Part shown: one piece after another, positions 9,859 to 46,249 of the stretch
Numbering within the stretch: the stretch's first letter is position 1
How the letters are laid out: each line of letters begins with the position of its first letter
NCBI GenBank assembly: GCA_938075305.1
Contig: CALJGV010000014.1
Span: 124,001-188,000, forward strand
Reading direction: 5' to 3'
Length of the DNA stretch: 64,000 nucleotides
Source: an uncultured bacterium
Lineage (GTDB): Bacteria; Planctomycetota; UBA1135; GCA-002686595
The notes under the pieces: model-generated
What the model saw: only the letters and a program-made list of their open reading frames with translations
Database searches by the model: none
What the model was told of the DNA's origin: nothing
Translations under genes and position numbers: made by a program

Positions 9859-11031
9859 ATGACCACCGCTCCCCATCGCCCTGGACCCGGTCGCCACGCG
9901 CCCGCGGCCACCGTCATACTCGGGGCCATCACTCTCTTGGGCTGCGGGCCCGGCGAGGTGGTCGATATCGACGGCCGTCGGACCTCCGAGCGTCCAACCC
10001 TTCCCGTGCGGCCGGGCGCCACGGTGGCGGAGCGGCTGCCCTTGCGGCAGCGACCAGAGGCCGCGGGAGCCACGCAGCCGGTTGATCCCGCCAGAGGCAG
10101 CGCGCCCAGCGGCGCTGAGCTGGCGGCGATGTTCGAGTACGACCTCCCCGATGGGTGGGAGGAGCTTCCGCCCACTCAGTTCAGGATCATCAACCTGCTC
10201 ATCCCCGGTGAGCAGCCCGCGGAGGTCACGCTCACCATGCTGATGGGGAACGGCGGGGGCGTGCGCGCAAACCTCGACCGCTGGCGCAGGCAAGTTGGGC
10301 TCGCGCCCATGAGCGACGAGGAGTTCCTTGCCCTCGGTGAGCGCACCGTGTTCGACCAGGCCGCGACCTACGTGGAGCTGCGCGGCAGCTACGAGGGGAT
10401 GGACGGGACGAAGATTCCCGACGCCGGCCTCTTTGGCGCGGTGTTCGCCCGGGATCAGTCCGCGCTCTTCGTCAAGATGACCGGGCCTGCGGACCTGCTT
10501 GTTGACCAGCGAGGGGCCTTCCATGGGTTCCTCGACAGCCTTGACCTGGCCGCGCGTCCGGCGAGCCAGTCGGGGGCGGGGTCGACCGCGGGGCCGCCGC
10601 CGGGCGCGTCCGCGTCCTGGCTCCGCTGGGACGCCCCCGTGGGCTGGGCGGAGGAGGCGGCCAGCAGCTCCTTCCGAGAGGTGACCTTCCGCAAGGGAGA
10701 CGTGGAGATGTACATCTCCACGGCCCGGGGCGGGGTGCTGGCCAACGTGAATCGGTGGGCGGCGCAGCTGGGCCTCGACCCCCTCGACGAGGCCGGGCTC
10801 GCATCCCTGGAGACCACCCCGATGCTGGGTCGGTCGGCCACGGTGTTCGAGGGCGCCGGGGCGCTCCAGGGAATGCGCGATCCAGAGCCAAAGCCCGACC
10901 AACGCATGCTCGCCGCCATCGTCGAGAACGCGGGGGTCATCGTGACCCTCAAGGCAACGGGGCCCAGCGCGGAAGTGGCTTCGGTCCGCGCCGACTTCAT
11001 CAGCCTCGCGAACTCCATCGGGGTTCGCTGA
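9859..11031 (+). CDS. Lipoprotein with two copies of one domain, unknown function
   Basis: This is a 390-residue predicted lipoprotein. After an N-terminal hydrophobic segment, LLGCG at about residues 29-33 forms a lipobox. Two copies of a roughly 130-residue domain follow. Each begins at a DLPDGWEELPPTQFR- or APVGWAEEAASSSFR-type segment, continues into V(R/L)ANLDRWRRQVGLAPM or VLANVNRWAAQLGLDPL, and ends in strands with FVKMTGP or VTLKATGP. The unit probably has one structural role in the periplasm or at the outer surface. The ATG at 9859 places the signal peptide at the N-terminus. resB follows after 13 bases, so it may be in the cytochrome maturation operon. Confidence 0.75.
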   Translation: MTTAPHRPGPGRHAPAATVILGAITLLGCGPGEVVDIDGRRTSERPTLPVRPGATVAERLPLRQRPEAAGATQPVDPARGSAPSGAELAAMFEYDLPDGWEELPPTQFRIINLLIPGEQPAEVTLTMLMGNGGGVRANLDRWRRQVGLAPMSDEEFLALGERTVFDQAATYVELRGSYEGMDGTKIPDAGLFGAVFARDQSALFVKMTGPADLLVDQRGAFHGFLDSLDLAARPASQSGAGSTAGPPPGASASWLRWDAPVGWAEEAASSSFREVTFRKGDVEMYISTARGGVLANVNRWAAQLGLDPLDEAGLASLETTPMLGRSATVFEGAGALQGMRDPEPKPDQRMLAAIVENAGVIVTLKATGPSAEVASVRADFISLANSIGVR

Positions 11032-25407: not shown

Positions 25408-27678
25408 TCAGTCCTCCGGGGTCTCTTCGTCGAGCATGCGGGCGGCCTCCAGGGGGGACAGTCCCACCTGGTCGCCGGCGGTCTCTCCGCGCTGGGGCGG
25501 CGTGTAGAGCGGCAGGTCGAAGCCCTCCAGCCCGACGGAGGAGCCAGCGGCCTCGCTGGACATACCGAAGGTGGGGTCGATCTTCCGCAAGCGCTCGATG
25601 CCAATCTCGCGGGCCGCCTCGAGCTTCTTCCCGTAGGAGAGCTCGGCCAGGTCGGCGAACTCGGTGTCCTTCAGGATGTGGGGCGTGACGAAGAAGTAGA
25701 GGACGGTGCGGTCCCGGGTGCCGGTCTCGCGCGAGAACAGGCGGCCGAGAATCGGGATGTCCCCGAGCCACGGGACCTGGGTCCGGGTCTTGCTCTCGTT
25801 GTCCACCACGATGCCGCCGATGACCATCGTGCTGCCATCGGGGACGTTGATCTGAGTCTCGATGGTCCGGGTCACCCGCGGCGGCGGGATGGCGCCCTGG
25901 ACGGCCCCGATGAAGGTGGAGACCTCGAGGTAGACGTCGAGGCGCAGGTAGCGCGAGGCGCTGATGGAGGGGGAGATCTCCATGGTGATGCCCGCCTCCT
26001 CGTAGCCGTTGAAGTTCTCCTGGGTCTGACCGGCGCCGACGCCGCCGCCTGTTGCGGTGATCTGCGTCGTGGGCTGCTCGTCCAGGGTGGAGACCCTGGC
26101 GACCGAGTTGTTGTTCACCAGGACGCTCGGGACGTTGAGCACGTCCGAGTTCCGCTTCTCCTCGACCAGCGCGACCAGCATGGGGATGGAGAACTCGTCC
26201 CCGTCGATGATGCCCGCCGTGACACCCTGTCCGACGTTGGGGACCCGCAGGTCGGGGACGCCGTCCCCGTCGGAGTCCTGAATCGTCGAGAGACCGAAGC
26301 CCGTGACGCCGAAGCCGCCGCTCTCGCCGACGCCGGGGATGTCCGCGAAGCCGAGCTCCACGCCGATGTCGAGGAAGTCGCGGCCGGTGAGCTCGATCAG
26401 CGCGGTCTCGATCAAGACCTGGTCCTGCCGTCGGTCGAGGCGCTCGATGAGCGACTTGAGCTCCTCGTATCGCGTCCGGTTGGCCGCGATGAGCAGGGAG
26501 TTGGTCTCGGCGTCCGCAACCACGACGTACTCGCGGGCGTTGTTGGACGCCCGAGGTGCACCAGCCCGCTGGTTGCCCGCGGCCGCGCCCTGCTCGAGCT
26601 GGACGGCGTCCTGCAGGAACTCGTCGAGGGTCTCGGCGAGGTCCTCGGCGCTGACGTTGTCGAGGGCGTAGATGTGGTAGTTGCGCTCCCGCTCGACGAC
26701 GTCCACGTCGAGGCGTGCGACGAGCTCCTTGATGCGCGGCATCTCCTCCGGCATGGCCATGACGAGGAGCGAGTTGGTTCGGCTCTCGGTGAGGATCTTG
26801 GCCTCACCCTGGTTGCGGTTCAGCGCGCCCTGGGGGCCCTGGGCCTGCGGACCCGACGGGCGGTTCTGGTTCGCCGCCTCGAGCAGCTCTTCGACGGTCG
26901 CGGCGATGTCCTCCGCCGACGCGTACTCGAGCTTGATCACGTCGAACTCCGGCGGGATCACCTCCGTCTGGGAGGCGTCGTCGATGATCTTGAGCATGTT
27001 CGCCAGCGCCACCACGTTGCTGCCGAACCCGACCAGGACCATGGACTGGGAGTTACCCGCCGGCAGCATTTGCTGCGTGTTGGGGTCGGTGATCATCGAC
27101 CGCATCGAGTTGGAGACCTGCCGCACGTCCGTGTTGGGCAGGCTCACCACGGTGGTGATCAGGGTCGCGGGCTGGTCCTCGTACTCCTCGAGGCGCTCCG
27201 GCTCCACGTAGAGCGCGCCCGCGCGGAGGTTGTTGCGGGCCGCGGTGGCCAGGGAGTCGATCTTGATGACCGAGATGTCGTCCTCGCCGATCTCCGTGCA
27301 GACGAAGTCGGAGATGATCATCATCACCTGGAAGAAGGAGTAGAACCGGTCCTTCTTGATGGTCTTGGCGCCCAGCAGGTTGACCTGCTGGTTCTTGAGC
27401 AGCGCCTCGGTCTCGGCACCCCAGGTGAAGTTCAGCCCGGTGACCTGCTCGCAGGCCTGGACGAACTGGTAGAGCGTCATGCTCTCGTCCTCGTCGCTCT
27501 GGGCGAAGTTCAGGACGTAGGTGCCGTCCTGCTCCTGGATGACGTAGAGCTCCTCATCCTCACCCTGTGCCATCGCGGCGCCGCTCGCGCCGAGCAGCAG
27601 GGTCAGGAGGCAGGCCCCACGGGCCATGGCGCCGGCGAGACGGAGGGGGCCGCCGAGACCGGGGAGCCTTTGGGCCAT
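25408..27678 (-). CDS. gspD: Type II secretion outer-membrane secretin
   Basis: GspD is the secretin that forms the outer-membrane gate. From the ATG at 27678 the protein is 756 residues, with a signal peptide ending ASGAAMAQ. The periplasmic N0-N3 domains follow (repeated IKLEYASAEDIAATVEELL- and IYALDNVSAEDLAETLDEFL-type units). The secretin core then begins near LIETALIELTGRDFLDIG and contains the signature VPWLGDIPILGRLFSRE. A C-terminal 80-residue tail follows. An ATG at 27735 would add 19 residues before the signal. It is the first gene of the gspDEFGHIJ run. No gspC is adjacent. Confidence 0.93.
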   Translation of the reverse strand: MAQRLPGLGGPLRLAGAMARGACLLTLLLGASGAAMAQGEDEELYVIQEQDGTYVLNFAQSDEDESMTLYQFVQACEQVTGLNFTWGAETEALLKNQQVNLLGAKTIKKDRFYSFFQVMMIISDFVCTEIGEDDISVIKIDSLATAARNNLRAGALYVEPERLEEYEDQPATLITTVVSLPNTDVRQVSNSMRSMITDPNTQQMLPAGNSQSMVLVGFGSNVVALANMLKIIDDASQTEVIPPEFDVIKLEYASAEDIAATVEELLEAANQNRPSGPQAQGPQGALNRNQGEAKILTESRTNSLLVMAMPEEMPRIKELVARLDVDVVERERNYHIYALDNVSAEDLAETLDEFLQDAVQLEQGAAAGNQRAGAPRASNNAREYVVVADAETNSLLIAANRTRYEELKSLIERLDRRQDQVLIETALIELTGRDFLDIGVELGFADIPGVGESGGFGVTGFGLSTIQDSDGDGVPDLRVPNVGQGVTAGIIDGDEFSIPMLVALVEEKRNSDVLNVPSVLVNNNSVARVSTLDEQPTTQITATGGGVGAGQTQENFNGYEEAGITMEISPSISASRYLRLDVYLEVSTFIGAVQGAIPPPRVTRTIETQINVPDGSTMVIGGIVVDNESKTRTQVPWLGDIPILGRLFSRETGTRDRTVLYFFVTPHILKDTEFADLAELSYGKKLEAAREIGIERLRKIDPTFGMSSEAAGSSVGLEGFDLPLYTPPQRGETAGDQVGLSPLEAARMLDEETPED

Positions 27679-28113
27679 ATCTGCCGAAATCCGAGGATCC
27701 TGGGCGTGGGCGTCGCGTCGGGGAGCGTGGTTCATCTGGCGGAACTCGACCCGGGAGTCGAGGTTCGGACGGTTGGGTGTGGGGCGCATCGGTCGCGGGC
27801 CACGTGCTCATGTGGTCCGCAACTATCTGCCGCGTGGTGTCTTATGTCAGTCTTCGGGTGCTGGCGGCGGGCGCCCAGGGGCGACCGACCAGCGGTGGTG
27901 CGGCCGAAGCCGTGGCACGCGTCAAGGGAGACGAAGCGCCGGCCGCTATCTTCCCGTCTACACCCCGCTGTTTCGACCCGCAGGCGGGTTCGATTCACGA
28001 TTCTTGCATGACTGGAGCCTGGGCCCGCGACCCGTATTGAGGGGCGAAACAGGCTCGCGCCTTGTTTGGCGGGGGTCGTTGCTCGGGGGGCGTCCCGCTG
28101 TCAGTCTCTGTTC
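27679..28113. other. Divergent intergenic region, gspD / membrane protein pair
   Basis: These 435 bases between divergent genes hold no gene I can support. They should carry the promoter of the secretion operon and of the genes to the right. The only structure I see is an imperfect dyad at 27800-27815 (CCACGTG, CT, CATGTGG; 6 of 7 pairs) and a short hairpin ACCCGC/GCGGGT near 27975-27990. No confident -35/-10 pair is visible. Confidence 0.5.
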
Positions 28114-30425: not shown

Positions 30426-31532
30426 TCAGCTCGGCGACGGGCCGACCCAGTCCGCCATGCGCGCGTCCACCATGCGGGAGATGGCGTCGGCTGTCTGGCG
30501 GTAGAGCTCGAGCGAACCGCCGAAGGGATCGGGGACGTCTTCCCCGGCGGGGTCGAGGAGCTCGACGTTGGCTGCGGCGCCCGCGGGCAGCATCGAGAGG
30601 AGCGCGTCGCGATGCGACGCGGTCATGCAGTAGACGCGGTCCTGGTCAGCGACGAGCGCCTCGAGGGCCGGGGTGGAGCGGTGATCCCCGAGGGGGATGT
30701 CGCGCTCCGCGAGGGCCTCGATCGCCTGAGGTGACGCCGGAGAACCGGGCCCGGCGTAGACCCCGGCGGATCCGATCCTGAAGCCGAAGTCGGCCTCGTC
30801 TTTGGCCTCCAGCGCGCTGCGGAGCGCCGTGCGAGCCAGGGCCTCGGCCATGGGGCTGCGGCAGGTGTTGCCCGTGCAGACGAAAAGCAGCCGCTGGCCG
30901 GCCGTGCGCTTGATCTCTTCCATGGTGACGATTCCCTCTCGCAAGAGTTCTATCCCACCGGGGCCGAGCCGCGCCACCGTGGAGGCCTCGCCAAGGGCGC
31001 ACGGGCCTCCGTCGAGCACGGCGGCCAGTTCACCACCGGCGAAGATTTGACGAACCGTCTCGGCGTCGGTGGCGGGGGCCTCGCCCGCTCGGTTGGCGCT
31101 GGTCATGACCACCGGGAAGGGGGCGGCGCTGAGGACCGCGCCGGTGGCCTCATGGGCCGGGGCCCGGACCCCGGTCCATCCGTCGGCCGTGATGAGCTCG
31201 AGGCCTGGGGCCGTGGAGCGGACCACGAGCGTGAGAGGGCCGGGCCAGTACCGCTCCGTCGCCCGCTCGACCAGCGCCGGCAGCGCGGCGCGCCCGGCGA
31301 GGGCCTCCGTGCCGCCCACGTGCCAGGTGTACGGCCGGGGGGCACTCGTCCCCTTGACGGTGGCCAGGCGCTCGAGGGCCTCGGGCTGGTCGGCCCGCAC
31401 GGCGAGGCCATAGACGGTCTCCGTGGGCATGGAGACGACCGCGCCGGCCTCCAGGGCCCGTACGAGGCGCTGGATGACATCCTCGGTCGGGCGGTGGCCG
31501 GCCTGGACGGTGAGGTGGTCTGACTCGCTCAA
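30426..31532 (-). CDS. Fusion: Sua5/YrdC threonylcarbamoyl-AMP synthase plus low-molecular-weight protein phosphatase
   Basis: This is a 368-residue two-domain protein. Residues 15-205 match Sua5/YrdC, which makes threonylcarbamoyl-AMP for tRNA t6A37: SMPTETVYGLAVRAD, YWPGPLTLVV and VMTSANRAGEAP. Residues 213-365 match low-molecular-weight tyrosine/arginine phosphatases, with the P-loop VCTGNTCRS (Cys219, Arg225) and the general-acid segment VPDPFGGS (Asp335). The KxR motif of Sua5 is altered to KGTSAPRP. The two genes are neighbours in some bacteria (for example ywlC and ywlE of Bacillus), so a fusion is plausible. It is divergent from the histidine kinase gene. Confidence 0.88.
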   Translation of the reverse strand: MSESDHLTVQAGHRPTEDVIQRLVRALEAGAVVSMPTETVYGLAVRADQPEALERLATVKGTSAPRPYTWHVGGTEALAGRAALPALVERATERYWPGPLTLVVRSTAPGLELITADGWTGVRAPAHEATGAVLSAAPFPVVMTSANRAGEAPATDAETVRQIFAGGELAAVLDGGPCALGEASTVARLGPGGIELLREGIVTMEEIKRTAGQRLLFVCTGNTCRSPMAEALARTALRSALEAKDEADFGFRIGSAGVYAGPGSPASPQAIEALAERDIPLGDHRSTPALEALVADQDRVYCMTASHRDALLSMLPAGAAANVELLDPAGEDVPDPFGGSLELYRQTADAISRMVDARMADWVGPSPS

Positions 31533-34589: not shown

Positions 34590-35396
34590 GTGCCTGAGGC
34601 CATGTTCAAGAAGGCTCTCTGGCTCGCCGAGAAGGTGCGACGCCGCTTCGCCCCGGACGTGCCCACCCGTTCCCTCGGAGAGTGGGAGGCCCGCCACGAG
34701 GAGACGGTCCGTGAGGCTGTGGACTCGGTCCTGCCGTACCTCCCCGAGGACGGGGTGTTCCTGGACATCGGGGCGAACATCGGGATCTTCACCCGGCTCC
34801 TCAGGGAGCAGCGTCCGGGCGCCACCGGACTGCTCTTCGAGCCCGTGGCCCGCTACGCCGAGATGTGCCGGGAGCGCTTCGCCGGGGACGGGGGGCTCGA
34901 GGTCGTGCACGCGGCCATGGGGGACGAGGACGCCGTCCGAACCATCTACAAGGCCGCGCATAACTACGGGGCTAACTCGCTCATCACCGAGATCATGTTC
35001 GATCGCCGTCCCAACTCCGCCGTGCGGCCGGACACGGTCATCGAGGAGGAGGAGATCCGGCTCCTCGACGGTTCGCGATGGCTCCTCGAGCGGGGTATCG
35101 AGCACGTGGACGTCATCAAGACGGACACGGAGGGGTACGACTACGCGGTCCTGGACGGGCTGCGTGACTGGCTGGTGCGTACGGGCTGCCGCCCGGTCCT
35201 TCACGTGGAGCTCCTGGCTGAGGACTACCACCCCTTGGCGGAGCGCCAGCGTGCCGCCCTCGACGCCTACGTGCCCCTGGGCTATCAGGCGGTGGACCTC
35301 GAGCGGGACCTCTCGGGGACCGTGGGCGATGTGCTGCTGATCCCCGAGGGCCGGCAGCCGCTGGGCGGGCCGCAGCGAGGCGCGCCGAGGTCGTGA
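34590..35396 (+). CDS. FkbM-family SAM methyltransferase
   Basis: This is a 268-residue predicted sugar or glycan O-methyltransferase. Motif I is FLDIGANIGIFTRLL, followed by LLFEPVARYAEMCRERF, LEVVHAAMGDE and the FkbM hallmark HVDVIKTDTEGYDYAVLDG. These are diagnostic for the family, which methylates hydroxyls of polysaccharides and polyketides. The start may be the GTG at 34590 or the ATG at 34602. Its stop overlaps the flippase gene's GTG start, so it belongs to a three-gene surface-glycan group with the flippase and HAD genes. Confidence 0.85.
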   Translation: MPEAMFKKALWLAEKVRRRFAPDVPTRSLGEWEARHEETVREAVDSVLPYLPEDGVFLDIGANIGIFTRLLREQRPGATGLLFEPVARYAEMCRERFAGDGGLEVVHAAMGDEDAVRTIYKAAHNYGANSLITEIMFDRRPNSAVRPDTVIEEEEIRLLDGSRWLLERGIEHVDVIKTDTEGYDYAVLDGLRDWLVRTGCRPVLHVELLAEDYHPLAERQRAALDAYVPLGYQAVDLERDLSGTVGDVLLIPEGRQPLGGPQRGAPRS

Positions 35397-36751
35397 GCGG
35401 CGAGTCCCCCTCCAGGGTGCGGCGCGCGCTCGGCAGCCGCTTCCTGCGCGAGTCGAGCACGCTCCAGCTGGGGGCCCTCTTGGTGGCGGTGAGCAACCTG
35501 TTGGGGGCCGTGGTCATGACCCACGTCCTCGGCGCCTACGAGCTGTCGATCTTCTACCTGGGGGTGAGCACCTACTCGCTCCTCTGGGCGCTCCTGAACC
35601 TGGGCCTGGCCAACGTGGTCACCAAGCGCATCGCGGCCGCGATCCGGAGCGGGTCGGAGGAGCTGATCCGCGGCTGGATGGGGGTCTTCGTGCGGCTGTC
35701 CGTGGCCCTCGCCACCGTCGCGTTCCTCGCGGGCCTGCTCCTCTTCCCGCTCGGCGCTGGCCTCGCCTTCAAGGGCGACGGGCCACGGATCGCCCAGCTC
35801 GCGAGCACCCTCGTGCTGGTACCCCTGCTGGATGTGCCCCGGATCGTGTGCTCCGCGGCGCTCCAGGGCGAGCGGCGCATGTCCGCCCTGGCGAGGGTGG
35901 ACCTCGGGCACGAGCTCTGCCGACTGGTCCTCGTGGTCTCGGGCGCGCTGATCGTCGGTGACGCCTGGGGGGCTGTCCTGGGGCTCCTGGTCTCGTCGTT
36001 CTGCGGCAGCCTGATCGCCTTCGATGCCTACGGCAGGGAGCGGCGGCGCGAGGGCTCGCTCCTTCCGTCGCTGACCGGCGCAGCGCGGTCCACCTCGGTT
36101 CCGGCTCGCGCGGCTCTCCAGGAGGGGATCCAGGTGGGGCTGGTGCGCAACGTCGACTCGCTCGGAGTGCAGACCCTCCCCACGTTGATCCTGGGGAGCC
36201 TCGGCGACCCAGGGTGGGTGGCCTACCTGCGGATCGCCCAGCGCCTGGTGTCCGTGGCCCGGGTGATCATGCAGGGCATCAACCGCACCGCCCTGCCCGC
36301 GCTCTCGCAGCTCGCTGGCGTGAAGGACGTGGCCGGGCTCCGTGGGACCTACTGGAAGGCGAGCCTGCTCTCCGGGGCGACCATCACTGCGGGGCTGCTG
36401 CTCTCGCTCCCCGTCCTCCCGCTCGTCCTCCCCAGGCTCTTCCCGCCCGACTTCGTCGAGCCCCTGTGGACGATGATCCTGATCCTCACCCCCGGCCTCT
36501 GCGTGGTGAGCTTCTCGGTGGCGAACGACGTCTTCTATCTCGTCACGGACCAGATGGGCGTCGCCATCCGGCTGTCCCTGCTGGGCCTCTGCGTGAACAC
36601 CGCCCAGGTCGCCTTCTTCGCCTGGTGGCTGCCGACGATCGGTGTGGCGATCGGACTGACGGTCACCTGTCTTTGGAGCCTGGTCCACGTGGGATACGCG
36701 TGGTTCTGGTTCCGCAGGCACCCCGAGCTGCAACCCCTGGAGGCCAGTTGA
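35393..36751 (+). CDS. Polysaccharide flippase (Wzx/MATE-like)
   Basis: This 452-residue protein has about 12-14 hydrophobic segments, arranged like oligosaccharide flippases of the MATE/MVF superfamily. An N-terminal helix contains STLQLGALLVAVSNLLGAVV. A later NRTALPALSQLAGVKD segment resembles the conserved loop of the second half. It would flip a lipid-linked glycan across the inner membrane. Start GTG at 35393 (4-base overlap with FkbM). Its stop overlaps the TTG start of the HAD gene. No polymerase or glycosyltransferases are adjacent. Confidence 0.85.
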   Translation: MSGESPSRVRRALGSRFLRESSTLQLGALLVAVSNLLGAVVMTHVLGAYELSIFYLGVSTYSLLWALLNLGLANVVTKRIAAAIRSGSEELIRGWMGVFVRLSVALATVAFLAGLLLFPLGAGLAFKGDGPRIAQLASTLVLVPLLDVPRIVCSAALQGERRMSALARVDLGHELCRLVLVVSGALIVGDAWGAVLGLLVSSFCGSLIAFDAYGRERRREGSLLPSLTGAARSTSVPARAALQEGIQVGLVRNVDSLGVQTLPTLILGSLGDPGWVAYLRIAQRLVSVARVIMQGINRTALPALSQLAGVKDVAGLRGTYWKASLLSGATITAGLLLSLPVLPLVLPRLFPPDFVEPLWTMILILTPGLCVVSFSVANDVFYLVTDQMGVAIRLSLLGLCVNTAQVAFFAWWLPTIGVAIGLTVTCLWSLVHVGYAWFWFRRHPELQPLEAS

Positions 36752-37480: not shown

Positions 37481-37634
37481 AAAGAGCCCCCCTGCTGACC
37501 CCCGCTTCGGCGGTCCCCAACGGAATCAAATCGAGCGCGGTGTCACCCGCGGCTGTCCCTGATGTAGAAGGGTTGCCGTGCTGCCAGTGGCCGACCGCCT
37601 ATCGCACGCTGCCATGGTAGAAATGAGGGATCGT

Positions 37635-38135
37635 ATGGCTGGCTTCAAGAAGCTGGGCGCGAAGGGCAACGTGGTTCACCACGTCGTCCTCCCTGGCCCG
37701 ACTCGCCGAGCGGGTGCCCGTCGCACGGGCGCCTCGGGAGGCGGTCTGCGCGGATTGAACTTGGAGCGGGCCCGCCAGGGTTCCCCCGTGATTCAGCCGC
37801 CGTCCGACCCTGCGGAGCCCGCAGCGGCACGACGGGCGACGCCCACGGGCGCGCCCGAGGCGCAGAGCCCGGCGGAGACCCGGCAGAGCAAGCGCGAAAC
37901 CGAACTCCTGCAGCGCCGCATCGACAAGCTCTCCCGGCTCCTCACGGAGCAGGAGGAGCAGATCCGCAGCCTTGCCGACCGCGATCAGGCCTCGGAGACC
38001 GAAGCGCGCTTCTACGACGCTGTGAAGCCCCAGCTGCCTGCGACCCCTCCGGACGAGAAGCGGCGCGCCTTCATGTCCCAGTTGTTCCAGGCCAACCTGG
38101 AACTCCGGGAAAGCGTCAACAAGTCCGGCTCCTGA
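37635..38135 (+). CDS. Coiled-coil protein sharing a C-terminal module with the degenerate-GGDEF protein
   Basis: This 166-residue basic protein has an Arg/Gly/Pro-rich, probably disordered N-terminus (about 1-80) and a helical C-terminus. The last 80 residues contain RRIDKLSRLLTEQEEQIRSL, a Tyr-x-x-V segment and MSQLFQANLELRES. This closely matches the C-terminus of the protein encoded at 45215-46249 (RRIEKLTRSL, YREV, MGEIFKANLDLQS). GAGGGA lies four bases before the ATG at 37635; an upstream GTG at 37578 is an alternative. The MamK-like actin gene follows after 142 bases on the same strand. I recognise no named family. A filament adaptor or localisation factor is an inference. Confidence 0.6.
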   Translation: MAGFKKLGAKGNVVHHVVLPGPTRRAGARRTGASGGGLRGLNLERARQGSPVIQPPSDPAEPAAARRATPTGAPEAQSPAETRQSKRETELLQRRIDKLSRLLTEQEEQIRSLADRDQASETEARFYDAVKPQLPATPPDEKRRAFMSQLFQANLELRESVNKSGS

Positions 38136-38277
38136 GCCGATCAGACCGGAGAAGGGGCTCCCTTCCTCGACGTTCTCGCGGCGGCTCTTTTCCGCACGGC
38201 CCGGACTCGCCATGCTTGTGGCGGCTCGCTCCTGGGCCGACCCATGGCTCGATGATCAGGGGCTCTATCCAAACACC

Positions 38278-39345
38278 ATGACGAACATCCAGACTGACGA
38301 CACCGAAGGGACCGGCAAGGACCGCGGCGTCCTCTATGTGGGCATCGACCTCGGCACCTCGCGCACCTCGGTGACCGCGAGTAACGGCGTCCGCGAGACC
38401 ATCGAGTCGTTCGTGGGCTACCCCAAGGACCCGGTGGCGATGAAGCTTCTCAAGAAGGAGGTGCTCTTCGGCGCCGAGGCCCGCGAGAAGCGCCTCTCGC
38501 TCAACCTCCACCGGCCCCTCGAGCACGGCGTGCTCAAGTTCAACGCGGACGGCTCTGAGAACCAGGACTCGCGCCGCGCGGCGATGGACCTCGTGAAGGA
38601 GATCGTGCGGCTCTCGAAGCCGCGCAAGGACGAGCTCGTATACGCCGTCATCGGGGTCCCCGCCCAGGCGCAGATCAACAACAAGGACGCCATCCTTCAG
38701 GCCGCGCGGGAGTCCGTGGACTCCGTGATGCTCTGCTCGGAGCCCTTCTCCGTCGCCTACGGGCTGGACATGCTCGAGGACGTGCTGGTGATCGACATCG
38801 GCGCGGGCACAGTCGACCTCTGCCGGATGCACGGCACCATGCCGGAGGAGTCCGACCAGATCACCATGAACACCGCGGGCGACTACGTGGACGACGAGCT
38901 CGGCAAGGAGATCGCCGCCGCCTTCCCCCAGGCGCAGTTCACCAAGCAGATGATCAAGGCGATCAAGGAGCGCCACAGCACGGTCGACGTGAACACCGAG
39001 AAGATCACGACCGAGCTCCCCGTGGAGGGTAAGCCCACCGAGTTCGAGATCACCGAGCAGGTGCGCACCGCGTGCCAGCGCATCGTCCCGCCCATCGTCG
39101 AGGGCCTCGGCAAGCTGATCAGCACCTTCGACCCCGAGTTCCAGGACAAGCTCAAGGGGCGCGTCCTGCTGGCCGGTGGCGGCAGCCAGATCCGCGGGCT
39201 GGACCGCGCCATCTCCGAGGAGATGCAGCGCACCCTCGGCGGCGGCAACGTGATCCGCATCGAGGAGCCCATGTACGGCGGCGCCAACGGCGCGCTGAAG
39301 ATCGCGCACGACATGCCCGAGGAGTACTGGGAGCAGCTCAAGTGA
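38278..39345 (+). CDS. MamK-like bacterial actin
   Basis: This 355-residue actin-fold ATPase is closest in my recollection to MamK, the filament that aligns magnetosomes, rather than MreB. It has phosphate-1 VGIDLGTSRT (21-30), a VGYPKD segment, VIGVPAQA, Glu155 in CSEPFSVAYGLDML, phosphate-2 VIDIGAGTVDL (171-181), then GTMPEESDQITMNTAGDYVDDEL, and the adenosine motif LLAGGGSQIRG (297-307). The C-terminus MPEEYWEQLK is also MamK-like. Length fits (about 350). It should form cytoplasmic filaments. No mam genes are seen. Its stop overlaps the start of the metalloprotease gene (GTGA). The ATG at 38278 gives family length. Confidence 0.82.
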   Translation: MTNIQTDDTEGTGKDRGVLYVGIDLGTSRTSVTASNGVRETIESFVGYPKDPVAMKLLKKEVLFGAEAREKRLSLNLHRPLEHGVLKFNADGSENQDSRRAAMDLVKEIVRLSKPRKDELVYAVIGVPAQAQINNKDAILQAARESVDSVMLCSEPFSVAYGLDMLEDVLVIDIGAGTVDLCRMHGTMPEESDQITMNTAGDYVDDELGKEIAAAFPQAQFTKQMIKAIKERHSTVDVNTEKITTELPVEGKPTEFEITEQVRTACQRIVPPIVEGLGKLISTFDPEFQDKLKGRVLLAGGGSQIRGLDRAISEEMQRTLGGGNVIRIEEPMYGGANGALKIAHDMPEEYWEQLK

Positions 39346-40523
39346 GCGACCCCGGACCTCCGGAGCAGCAGGCGGCCGGCGATCCCGAAGGGGGGCGCCG
39401 GCCGCCGCTCCATTCACGGCTCCTGGTGCGGTGGGCCGTGGCCCTCACGCCCTGGGCCGCGGCGCTCCTGTGCGTGGCCGTCGCCCGGGCGGGCCCCGGG
39501 TTGGTCGAGGCGTACTTTGCGCGCGGCGTCTACCCGAGGGTCGCGGGCCTCATCGGGGAGGCCGCCCGGGGGTGGTCAGCTCTGACAGGCGCCCCACGGC
39601 GCGCCGGTCGCTTCCTGTCCCTGTCGGAGGTGGGGATCCTCGTGGTGGCCGTGGCCCTCTGCTGGCTCGTGCGCCGGGGCTGGCGCCGTGGTGGTGCCGG
39701 CGCGGCGCTCCGGCGCGGGCTCGCGGCGAGCGGCGGTGGGGCGCTCCTGTTCCTGCTCCTCTGGGGCCTCAACTACTCGAGGCTCCCGCTGGCGGCCACC
39801 CTGGACATGGAGCCCGCTGGCGCCTCGGCCTCGGAGCTCGACCGGCTCGCCGGAGCCTTGGAGGGCCAGCTCCAGCCCTACCTCGCCGCGCCAGGCTCCC
39901 TCGGGGCGCTCGACCCAGGGGCCGCGCTGGAGCTGGCCGCGGCGTCCTGGCGGGAGGCCCTCGGACGCGAGCCCGCGCTCGGAGCCGGCTCCGGGGTCCT
40001 CGTTCGGCCAGCCCTCTCGGGCGCCATCGTGGGGGCCGGCATCAGCGGCATCTTCAGCCCCTTCACCCAGGAGGCTCACGTGGCCGCGCATCTGCCCGTA
40101 CCGGACCTCCTGTTCACCGCGTGCCACGAGCTGGCCCACGCGCAGGGCTGGGCGCGGGAGGACGAGGCCAACTACCTGGCGTGGCGTGTGGGAAGCCGGT
40201 CCTCCAGCGCCGAGGTGCGGTCCGCGGCGCGGCTCCTCGCGCTCGGACACGTGCTCGGCGCGCTGGGGCGCGCGGACCGGGAGCGTCTCGCGGCTCGGAT
40301 CGACCAGCTGGACCCTCGGATTCGGTCCGCCATGGAGGAGCGTGCGCGATTCTGGGACCGAGAGCGGTCTCCCGCGGCGAGCCGCGCGGCCTCGGCGGTG
40401 AACGACGTCTACCTGCGGGCCCAGGGCCAGGAGGGGGTGGCCTCCTACGGGCGGATGGTGGACTTGCTCGCCGCTGAGTGGCGAGCGGCCGGCGAGCGGC
40501 TTCCCGGCGGAGATCCACGCTGA
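39342..40523 (+). CDS. DUF3810-type membrane protein with HExxH metalloprotease motif
   Basis: This is a 393-residue protein with three N-terminal hydrophobic segments (about 30-52, 95-112 and 130-145), then WGLNYSRLPL, which is characteristic of DUF3810, and a soluble domain. The domain carries a zinc-protease motif H262-E-L-A-H266 followed by Glu275 in REDEANYLAW, consistent with a gluzincin-like active site. Activity is not established for this family as far as I know. Start GTG at 39342 overlaps the stop of the MamK-like gene, suggesting coupled synthesis. Substrate unknown. Confidence 0.78.
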   Translation: MSDPGPPEQQAAGDPEGGRRPPLHSRLLVRWAVALTPWAAALLCVAVARAGPGLVEAYFARGVYPRVAGLIGEAARGWSALTGAPRRAGRFLSLSEVGILVVAVALCWLVRRGWRRGGAGAALRRGLAASGGGALLFLLLWGLNYSRLPLAATLDMEPAGASASELDRLAGALEGQLQPYLAAPGSLGALDPGAALELAAASWREALGREPALGAGSGVLVRPALSGAIVGAGISGIFSPFTQEAHVAAHLPVPDLLFTACHELAHAQGWAREDEANYLAWRVGSRSSSAEVRSAARLLALGHVLGALGRADRERLAARIDQLDPRIRSAMEERARFWDRERSPAASRAASAVNDVYLRAQGQEGVASYGRMVDLLAAEWRAAGERLPGGDPR

Positions 40524-45214: not shown

Positions 45215-46249
45215 ATGCCGAACCCTGGAACGCTGAGCTTCAATCCGAGCGGCAAGCCGCTCTTCACGGACGACGAGGTCCGGTCGCTGATGCAGATCGA
45301 GTTCGATCGGGCGCGGCGCTACGACTACCCCGTAGCGTGCCTCCTGATCGAGGTGGATCGGCTCGTGGACATCCAGACCATGCACGGCTACGAGGCCAGG
45401 GGCACGATCCTCCAGGCCTTCGTCGAGCTGCTGCAGGGCGAGACCCGCGCCGGGGACCTGTTGGGGACGGTCGTGGATGACCGGCTCATGGTCCTCATCC
45501 CGCACACCATGCCTGCCGCCGCTCGCGCCATCAGCGAGCGGGTGCTCAGGGGTGCCCGGGAAATGCAGTTCAGGGTCGGCGGCAAGTCGATCCGCGTCAG
45601 CGCCTCGATCGGGGTCGCCCACAACCAGGACGAGGCCGCGACCTCCGTGGCGACCCTCGAGCGCGTGGCGGAGGAGGGACTCTCGGTCGCCATCGCGAGC
45701 GGTGGAGGCCAGGTCGTGCAGACCGAGCTCTACCAGCTCTACGAGAAGGAGCCCGTGCCCCCGGCCCCGCCGGCCGGCGATGTGGCAGAGCTCCTGGCCC
45801 GGGCCGAGCGCATGGGCTATCGCGAGCGCCTGGAGGGTCTGGTGGCCGAGGGCGCTCCGCTGGAGAAGGCGGCGGATGAGATCGCTGGGGAGGTCATCCA
45901 GCGGGCCGTGCAGCAGGAGCGCGAACGGTGGTCCCGTGACCTCGAGATGGCCAACGCTCGCATCGAGGCCATGTCGACCTCCCTCGAGCAGGGGGGAGAT
46001 CGGGCCGGTCTCGAGCGCAGCCTGCTCCAGCTCAATCGTCGGATCGAGAAGCTCACCCGATCCCTGGAAACCACCGAGGCAGAGGTCGCGCGGCTGCGCT
46101 CTGCGGGCGTCGAGGACGCCGGTGTGGCCTCCGTCTACCGCGAGGTCCAGGGCCTCGACAGCGGCGAGAACCGCGCGGACCTGAAGCGTGAGCTCATGGG
46201 CGAGATCTTCAAGGCGAACCTCGACCTGCAGTCCAGGCGCAGCGCCTGA
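45215..46249 (+). CDS. Degenerate GGDEF-domain protein with coiled coil and shared C-terminal module
   Basis: This is a 344-residue cytoplasmic protein. Residues 15-175 resemble a GGDEF domain (DEVRSLMQIEFDRARRYDYPVACLLIEVD, VSASIGVAHNQDEA), but the signature is VDDRL at about 87-91 in place of GGDEF, so cyclic-di-GMP synthesis is unlikely. Residues about 190-300 form a coiled coil. The last 80 residues (RRIEKLTRSL to MGEIFKANLDLQS) match the C-terminus of the protein encoded at 37635-38135. It probably senses or scaffolds rather than signals by catalysis. A very strong hairpin follows its stop. Confidence 0.75.
   Translation: MPNPGTLSFNPSGKPLFTDDEVRSLMQIEFDRARRYDYPVACLLIEVDRLVDIQTMHGYEARGTILQAFVELLQGETRAGDLLGTVVDDRLMVLIPHTMPAAARAISERVLRGAREMQFRVGGKSIRVSASIGVAHNQDEAATSVATLERVAEEGLSVAIASGGGQVVQTELYQLYEKEPVPPAPPAGDVAELLARAERMGYRERLEGLVAEGAPLEKAADEIAGEVIQRAVQQERERWSRDLEMANARIEAMSTSLEQGGDRAGLERSLLQLNRRIEKLTRSLETTEAEVARLRSAGVEDAGVASVYREVQGLDSGENRADLKRELMGEIFKANLDLQSRRSA

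Follow-up and report, generated by a model that had tools for sequence, protein, structure and literature searches.

MamK is a bacterial actin whose filaments line up magnetosomes. Planctomycetota include shape-shifting and engulfing cells, and we know of no partners of their actins. Saltatorellin, the actin-like protein of Saltatorellus, is said in a preprint to be most similar to MamK and to form filaments; to our knowledge no adaptor or docking peptide has been reported for it. The Saltatorellus clade is deep-branching and shape-changing, has a G+C content of 70% and possesses this actin-like protein (PMC11032199, PMC11481906), and Planctomycetota are described as being without FtsZ (PMC11032199). 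BeeR is a MamK-related actin of non-magnetotactic Verrucomicrobiota (PMC11929497). The coiled-coil proteins Mad20, Mad23, Mad25 and Mad26 interact with MamK and with Mad28 in two-hybrid assays (PMC12748827).

The locus described here lies in a window of 64,000 nucleotides (the whole stretch of planctomycete DNA that was analysed) and resembles each of these systems in part. With MamK (PDB 5ljv, 5jyg) it shares the protein family, the fold and a partner gene upstream of the actin (MamJ-like in MamK systems, by sequence reading); however, its actin belongs to a separate clade, no magnetosome genes were noticed beside it, and its partner is unlike MamJ and carries a conserved peptide that contains an asparagine. 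Like BeeR, it is a MamK-related actin outside magnetotactic bacteria, but the two proteins are only 28% identical. The Mad proteins also work as coiled-coil partners of a MamK actin, though in the magnetosome chain, and they are set beside the window adaptor by description only. The Amidase_3-linked MamK-like proteins of a sister clade have the same peptide encoded in the gene directly upstream, where the partner is a membrane-anchored cell-wall amidase and not a coiled-coil protein. We propose, with a probability of about two in three, that the window pair consists of a filament-forming MamK-family actin and a dedicated adaptor whose C-terminal peptide docks on the filament. The features concerned are as follows.

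37578..38135, forward strand: adaptor (partner) gene, coiled-coil-like, 185 aa; open reading frame matched by the held-out profile; an ATG at 37636 is a possible alternative start
37878..38117, forward strand: conserved module in the C-terminal part of the adaptor (residues 101-180); from profile match and alignment
38070..38108, forward strand: proposed actin-docking peptide FMSQLFQANLELR, residues 165-177; from motif column counts, position by sequence reading
38278..39345, forward strand: MamK-family actin gene, 355 aa; from NF040964, fold and tree; an in-frame ATG lies upstream at 38212
39342..40523, forward strand: DUF3810 membrane protein with a HELAH motif (PF12725, 177 bits); overlaps the actin stop; a local neighbour and no conserved part
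45215..46249, forward strand: second module protein, with a degenerate GGDEF domain (PF00990), a coiled coil and the C-terminal module
46193..46231, forward strand: second peptide copy LMGEIFKANLDLQ, residues 327-339; from motif rows, position by sequence reading

The actin and its relatives

The gene at 38278-39345 encodes an actin of the MamK family, which is neither the MreB of its genome nor a magnetosome MamK. It matches the NCBI model NF040964, “MamK family actin-like protein”, with 427.5 bits (3e-128) against a curated cut-off of 400, while the BeeR model (200.6 bits, cut-off 530) and the curated MreB model (67 bits, cut-off 293) both remain below threshold. The sequence shares 39-40% identity with Magnetospirillum MamK, and its AlphaFold2 model (pLDDT 89.8, pTM 0.86) finds the MamK filament 5ljv as the best Foldseek match (TMt 0.97, rmsd 1.4), followed by BeeR at 0.84 and then MreB at about 0.8. 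MreB identity was ruled out, as a separate and clear MreB is encoded elsewhere in the same genome (G000:C10), scoring 454 on the Pfam model versus 68 for the window actin. The initial annotation had named a MamK-type actin outside a magnetosome context from a set of MamK-type motifs; all of these are present in the translation, and the model scores agree with it. No magnetosome genes were noticed in the neighbourhood read around the actin. A magnetochrome search of the genome gave no match, with a control that was silent and uninformative.

In a tree of 164 proteins (of a quick type, computed without a mixture model) the planctomycete actins, together with one Phycisphaeraceae record, form one clade (node value 96). 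Magnetotactic MamK forms a distinct clade (100), its rows being labelled from record titles and tree position and not by magnetosome genes verified genome by genome. The window actin is thus MamK-like and not MreB, as had been suggested, although its clade stands apart from that of magnetosome MamK. Beside the planctomycete actins lies a clade of amidase-linked MamK-like proteins from Nitrospirota, Desulfobulbaceae, Acidobacteria and others. A further clade (97), to which the window actin does not belong, joins BeeR with four planctomycete proteins (L053, L068, L070 and L092); the long branches of BeeR, L203 and the Riflebacteria protein L237 are to be placed cautiously. Eight residues of the window actin (R79, A142, H185, F221, M225, P248, V249 and M346) are conserved in both peptide-bearing clades and not in magnetotactic MamK, and are candidates for contact with the peptide.

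Two observations concern the BeeR-like group. At L053, L068 and L092 the open reading frame upstream of the actin ends in a different motif common to the three, IPFDDIQAIIDxL-like, which is perhaps a second docking peptide. At L070 the gene upstream of the actin (9905-10321, reverse strand) consists of a response regulator receiver domain on its own (PF00072).

In a sample of 199 Planctomycetota genomes, 77 have a MamK-like protein, counted at about 240 bits or more, and several copies per genome are frequent. As an NCBI family exists and saltatorellin of the Saltatorellus clade is reportedly MamK-like, the window actin is probably of a known kind, perhaps a saltatorellin orthologue; with this family, its presence in 77 genomes and saltatorellin already reported, the initial description of the system as undescribed does not hold for the actin. 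It is conceivable, if somewhat doubtful, that orthology is the main story: the actin would then serve mainly as the cell-shape or pseudopod cytoskeleton of a Saltatorellus-like lineage, with the adaptor as an accessory, which is compatible with docking. The likeness consists of an actin of MamK-like type and a G+C content of 70% in both the clade and the window, and of these two agreements only. Saltatorellin of Saltatorellus species may indeed drive shape change (PMC11032199). Nevertheless, many planctomycete families outside the Saltatorellus clade also have the actin and the adaptor.

The upstream adaptor and its C-terminal peptide

Among 81 actin neighbourhoods compared, one neighbour is widely conserved, namely the gene that immediately precedes the actin on its strand. 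In the window this is the small gene at 37578-38135, whose C-terminal part is coiled-coil-like, as the initial annotation had stated. Across the loci the C-terminal 80 residues of this neighbour form a module, LERRIxKLxxxLxxTE...GxxSIYxxxQGL...KKxLLxxIFxxNLxLR, and in the terminal K(K/R)xLLxxIFxxNLxLR the asparagine is kept in 63 of 64 copies. A profile trained with the window family excluded gave E=7e-16 for the upstream gene and 1e-21 for the 45215-46249 product, and the next open reading frame of the window reached 0.69, so the adaptor match stands above chance.

At 56 of the 81 loci, from 21 families, the module profile matches the gene next to the actin on its upstream side. Seven more loci (L041, L072, L082, L086, L100, L109 and L114) have a shorter version with the C-terminal peptide only, recognised by eye or by regular expression, and when these are counted the adaptor-actin pairing extends to 23 of 31 families; the gene in this position in families f24 and f51 has no clear motif. 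The motif was first noticed after the fact and tested afterwards: its regular expression is found in 47 of 80 upstream open reading frames versus 6 of 2152 control frames (0.28%). At L109 the adaptor (-824 to -90 relative to mamK) carries three tandem peptide copies, GGGLLAGLVRENQALRG, a repetition which suggests multivalent binding.

Over the whole sample, 62 of the 199 Planctomycetota genomes have the module and 59 of these also have the actin, the three exceptions being weak. The corresponding Fisher value of 2e-30 is to be taken as support and not as a probability, because the profile seeds came from actin neighbours, which makes the test partly circular, and because the genomes are related.

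Downstream, the actin stop overlaps the DUF3810 gene by 4 bp (GTGA, 39342-39345), and by sequence reading its product has hydrophobic segments along with HELAH; both the overlap and the membrane character had been noted before. The initial annotation had proposed one system of adaptor, actin and membrane protease. The first two genes are kept together in relatives, more widely than was then supposed. The three-gene unit is not conserved, as DUF3810 lies near the actin at 4 of 80 other loci, all from the family of the window, and is adjacent within the genus only; it was ruled out as a core part of the system. Two other window genes were noted by eye, both on the reverse strand: a fusion of a Sua5/YciO-like domain with one like low-molecular-weight tyrosine phosphatases (30426-31532) and a large secretin-like protein of the GspD/PilQ type (25408-27789).

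The peptide in other proteins

The second module protein of the window is encoded away from the actin, and its homologues stand directly upstream of actin genes at L097 and L099. Its GGDEF domain is probably catalytically dead, because the signature reads VVDDR; a single-sequence fold of the protein reached pLDDT 50. A third adaptor, of full length, is encoded on a different contig in the genus of the window (G000:C18). In families f26, f78 and f80 the actin has no adjacent partner and unlinked module proteins occur in four genomes; three such copies inspected closely (L154, L151 and L152) have N-terminal hydrophobic segments. Fusion to PilZ was met in one marginal case (L087).

Actins of the sister clade are preceded, at the four loci scanned, by a gene for an Amidase_3 N-acetylmuramoyl-L-alanine amidase, and at the remaining loci the upstream gene has a matching C-terminal sequence. 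The first 40 or so residues contain ILRGVYEDNLRI and are followed by a hydrophobic segment and then by the amidase domain. This operon-like pair of membrane-anchored amidase and MamK-like actin was collected at 31 loci (L206-L244; for example L206:6965-9017 and L215:6890-8999) from Nitrospirota, Desulfobulbaceae, Acidobacteria, Aminicenantes and others. The regular expression derived from Planctomycetota finds 22 of the 31 amidase tails; shuffled tails match at a rate of 0.31%, and 4435 control frame starts gave 2 matches. The tails that it missed are mostly near misses or have truncated starts. In the phylum to which L206 belongs, that of a Nitrospirae record, Amidase_3 is present in 141 of 148 genomes and the tail profile in 11, and in all 11 a MamK-like gene is adjacent to the tailed amidase (Fisher 1e-12). 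Six other genomes of this phylum have a MamK-family protein (447-470 bits) without a tailed amidase, and the one amidase detected in the window genome has no peptide tail.

The peptide was also met singly at the C terminus of a gene adjoining mamK in L237, and at the C-terminal end of a long coiled-coil-like gene downstream of the MamK-like actin in L213, a contig labelled Thermoplasmata which could be mis-binned. Near magnetotactic mamK the regular expression gave two chance-like matches and none that was convincing. A literature search, with preprints and most subscription papers outside its scope, found no account of the partner gene or docking peptide and none of a link between MamK and amidases. 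As far as could be found, the partner with its conserved peptide is the new part of this system, the actin alone being not new.

Proposed mechanism and alternative explanations

Because the peptide recurs in unrelated proteins beside MamK-like actins across phyla, MamK-like filaments probably use it to hold other parts of the cell. Two unrelated upstream families share it with the same spacing and the same asparagine, so a common ligand, the actin, would be the simplest explanation. The actin would polymerise, and the amphipathic C-terminal peptide of the adaptor, of consensus hLxxI[FY]xxN[LV]xL[RQ], would bind directly to the filament, leaving the rest of each adaptor to set the tethered cargo. 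Planctomycete adaptors are soluble coiled-coil, membrane-anchored coiled-coil or degenerate-GGDEF proteins, and in the sister clade the same peptide lies in the N-terminal tail of the membrane-anchored amidase, a tail that we place in the cytoplasm by inference. The filament may thereby arrange the machinery of membrane and wall or exert a pull on it, and it could receive signalling input. The logic is comparable to that of peptide docking on FtsZ and on eukaryotic actin.

On a much less probable reading, the module serves oligomerisation or folding of the adaptor, is no binding site for actin, and tracks the actin through co-inheritance only. In favour of this, most module copies terminate a predicted coiled coil; against it, the peptide recurs free of any coil in the amidase tails and in short C-terminal versions (L072, L086). 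The peptide could also bind a third protein instead of the actin.

At about 14 loci a P-loop gene of the CpsD/BY-kinase-like type adjoins the pair, in the same direction at L101, L102 and L103 and divergently elsewhere (about 11 loci), which hints at a link to envelope polysaccharide. The CpsD-like protein at L108 has a C-terminal tyrosine cluster. A role in placing the machinery of polysaccharide synthesis or secretion, under control of such a tyrosine-kinase-type ATPase, is rather improbable: FkbM-like and flippase-like genes do lie upstream in the window (34590-36751, sequence reading), but most loci are without a CpsD-like gene, and in the window none was recognised next to the pair. Finally, the idea that the actin was left over from a magnetosome island since lost, which its membership in the MamK family might recall, is disfavoured by the tree and hardly credible, as the planctomycete clade is separate from the magnetotactic one, is widespread and has a non-magnetosome partner.

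Significance

Under the docking reading a conserved peptide would mark the partners of a widespread actin, and uncultured lineages could be searched with it for what this actin carries. The function of MamK outside magnetosomes also becomes open to test through peptide binding and single-residue mutants. The cellular role is the least certain part, and is most likely cell shape or envelope remodelling. In its broadest form, which we favour by a little, the peptide would be a short linear motif for docking on actin, general to the non-magnetosome filaments of the MamK family across phyla and borne by carriers as unrelated as coiled-coil adaptors, membrane anchors, degenerate GGDEF proteins and amidases, and these filaments would act as a modular scaffold through which signalling and the membrane are connected with remodelling of the wall. 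It is suggested that the MamK of magnetosomes may be one part of a wider family tied to envelope proteins.
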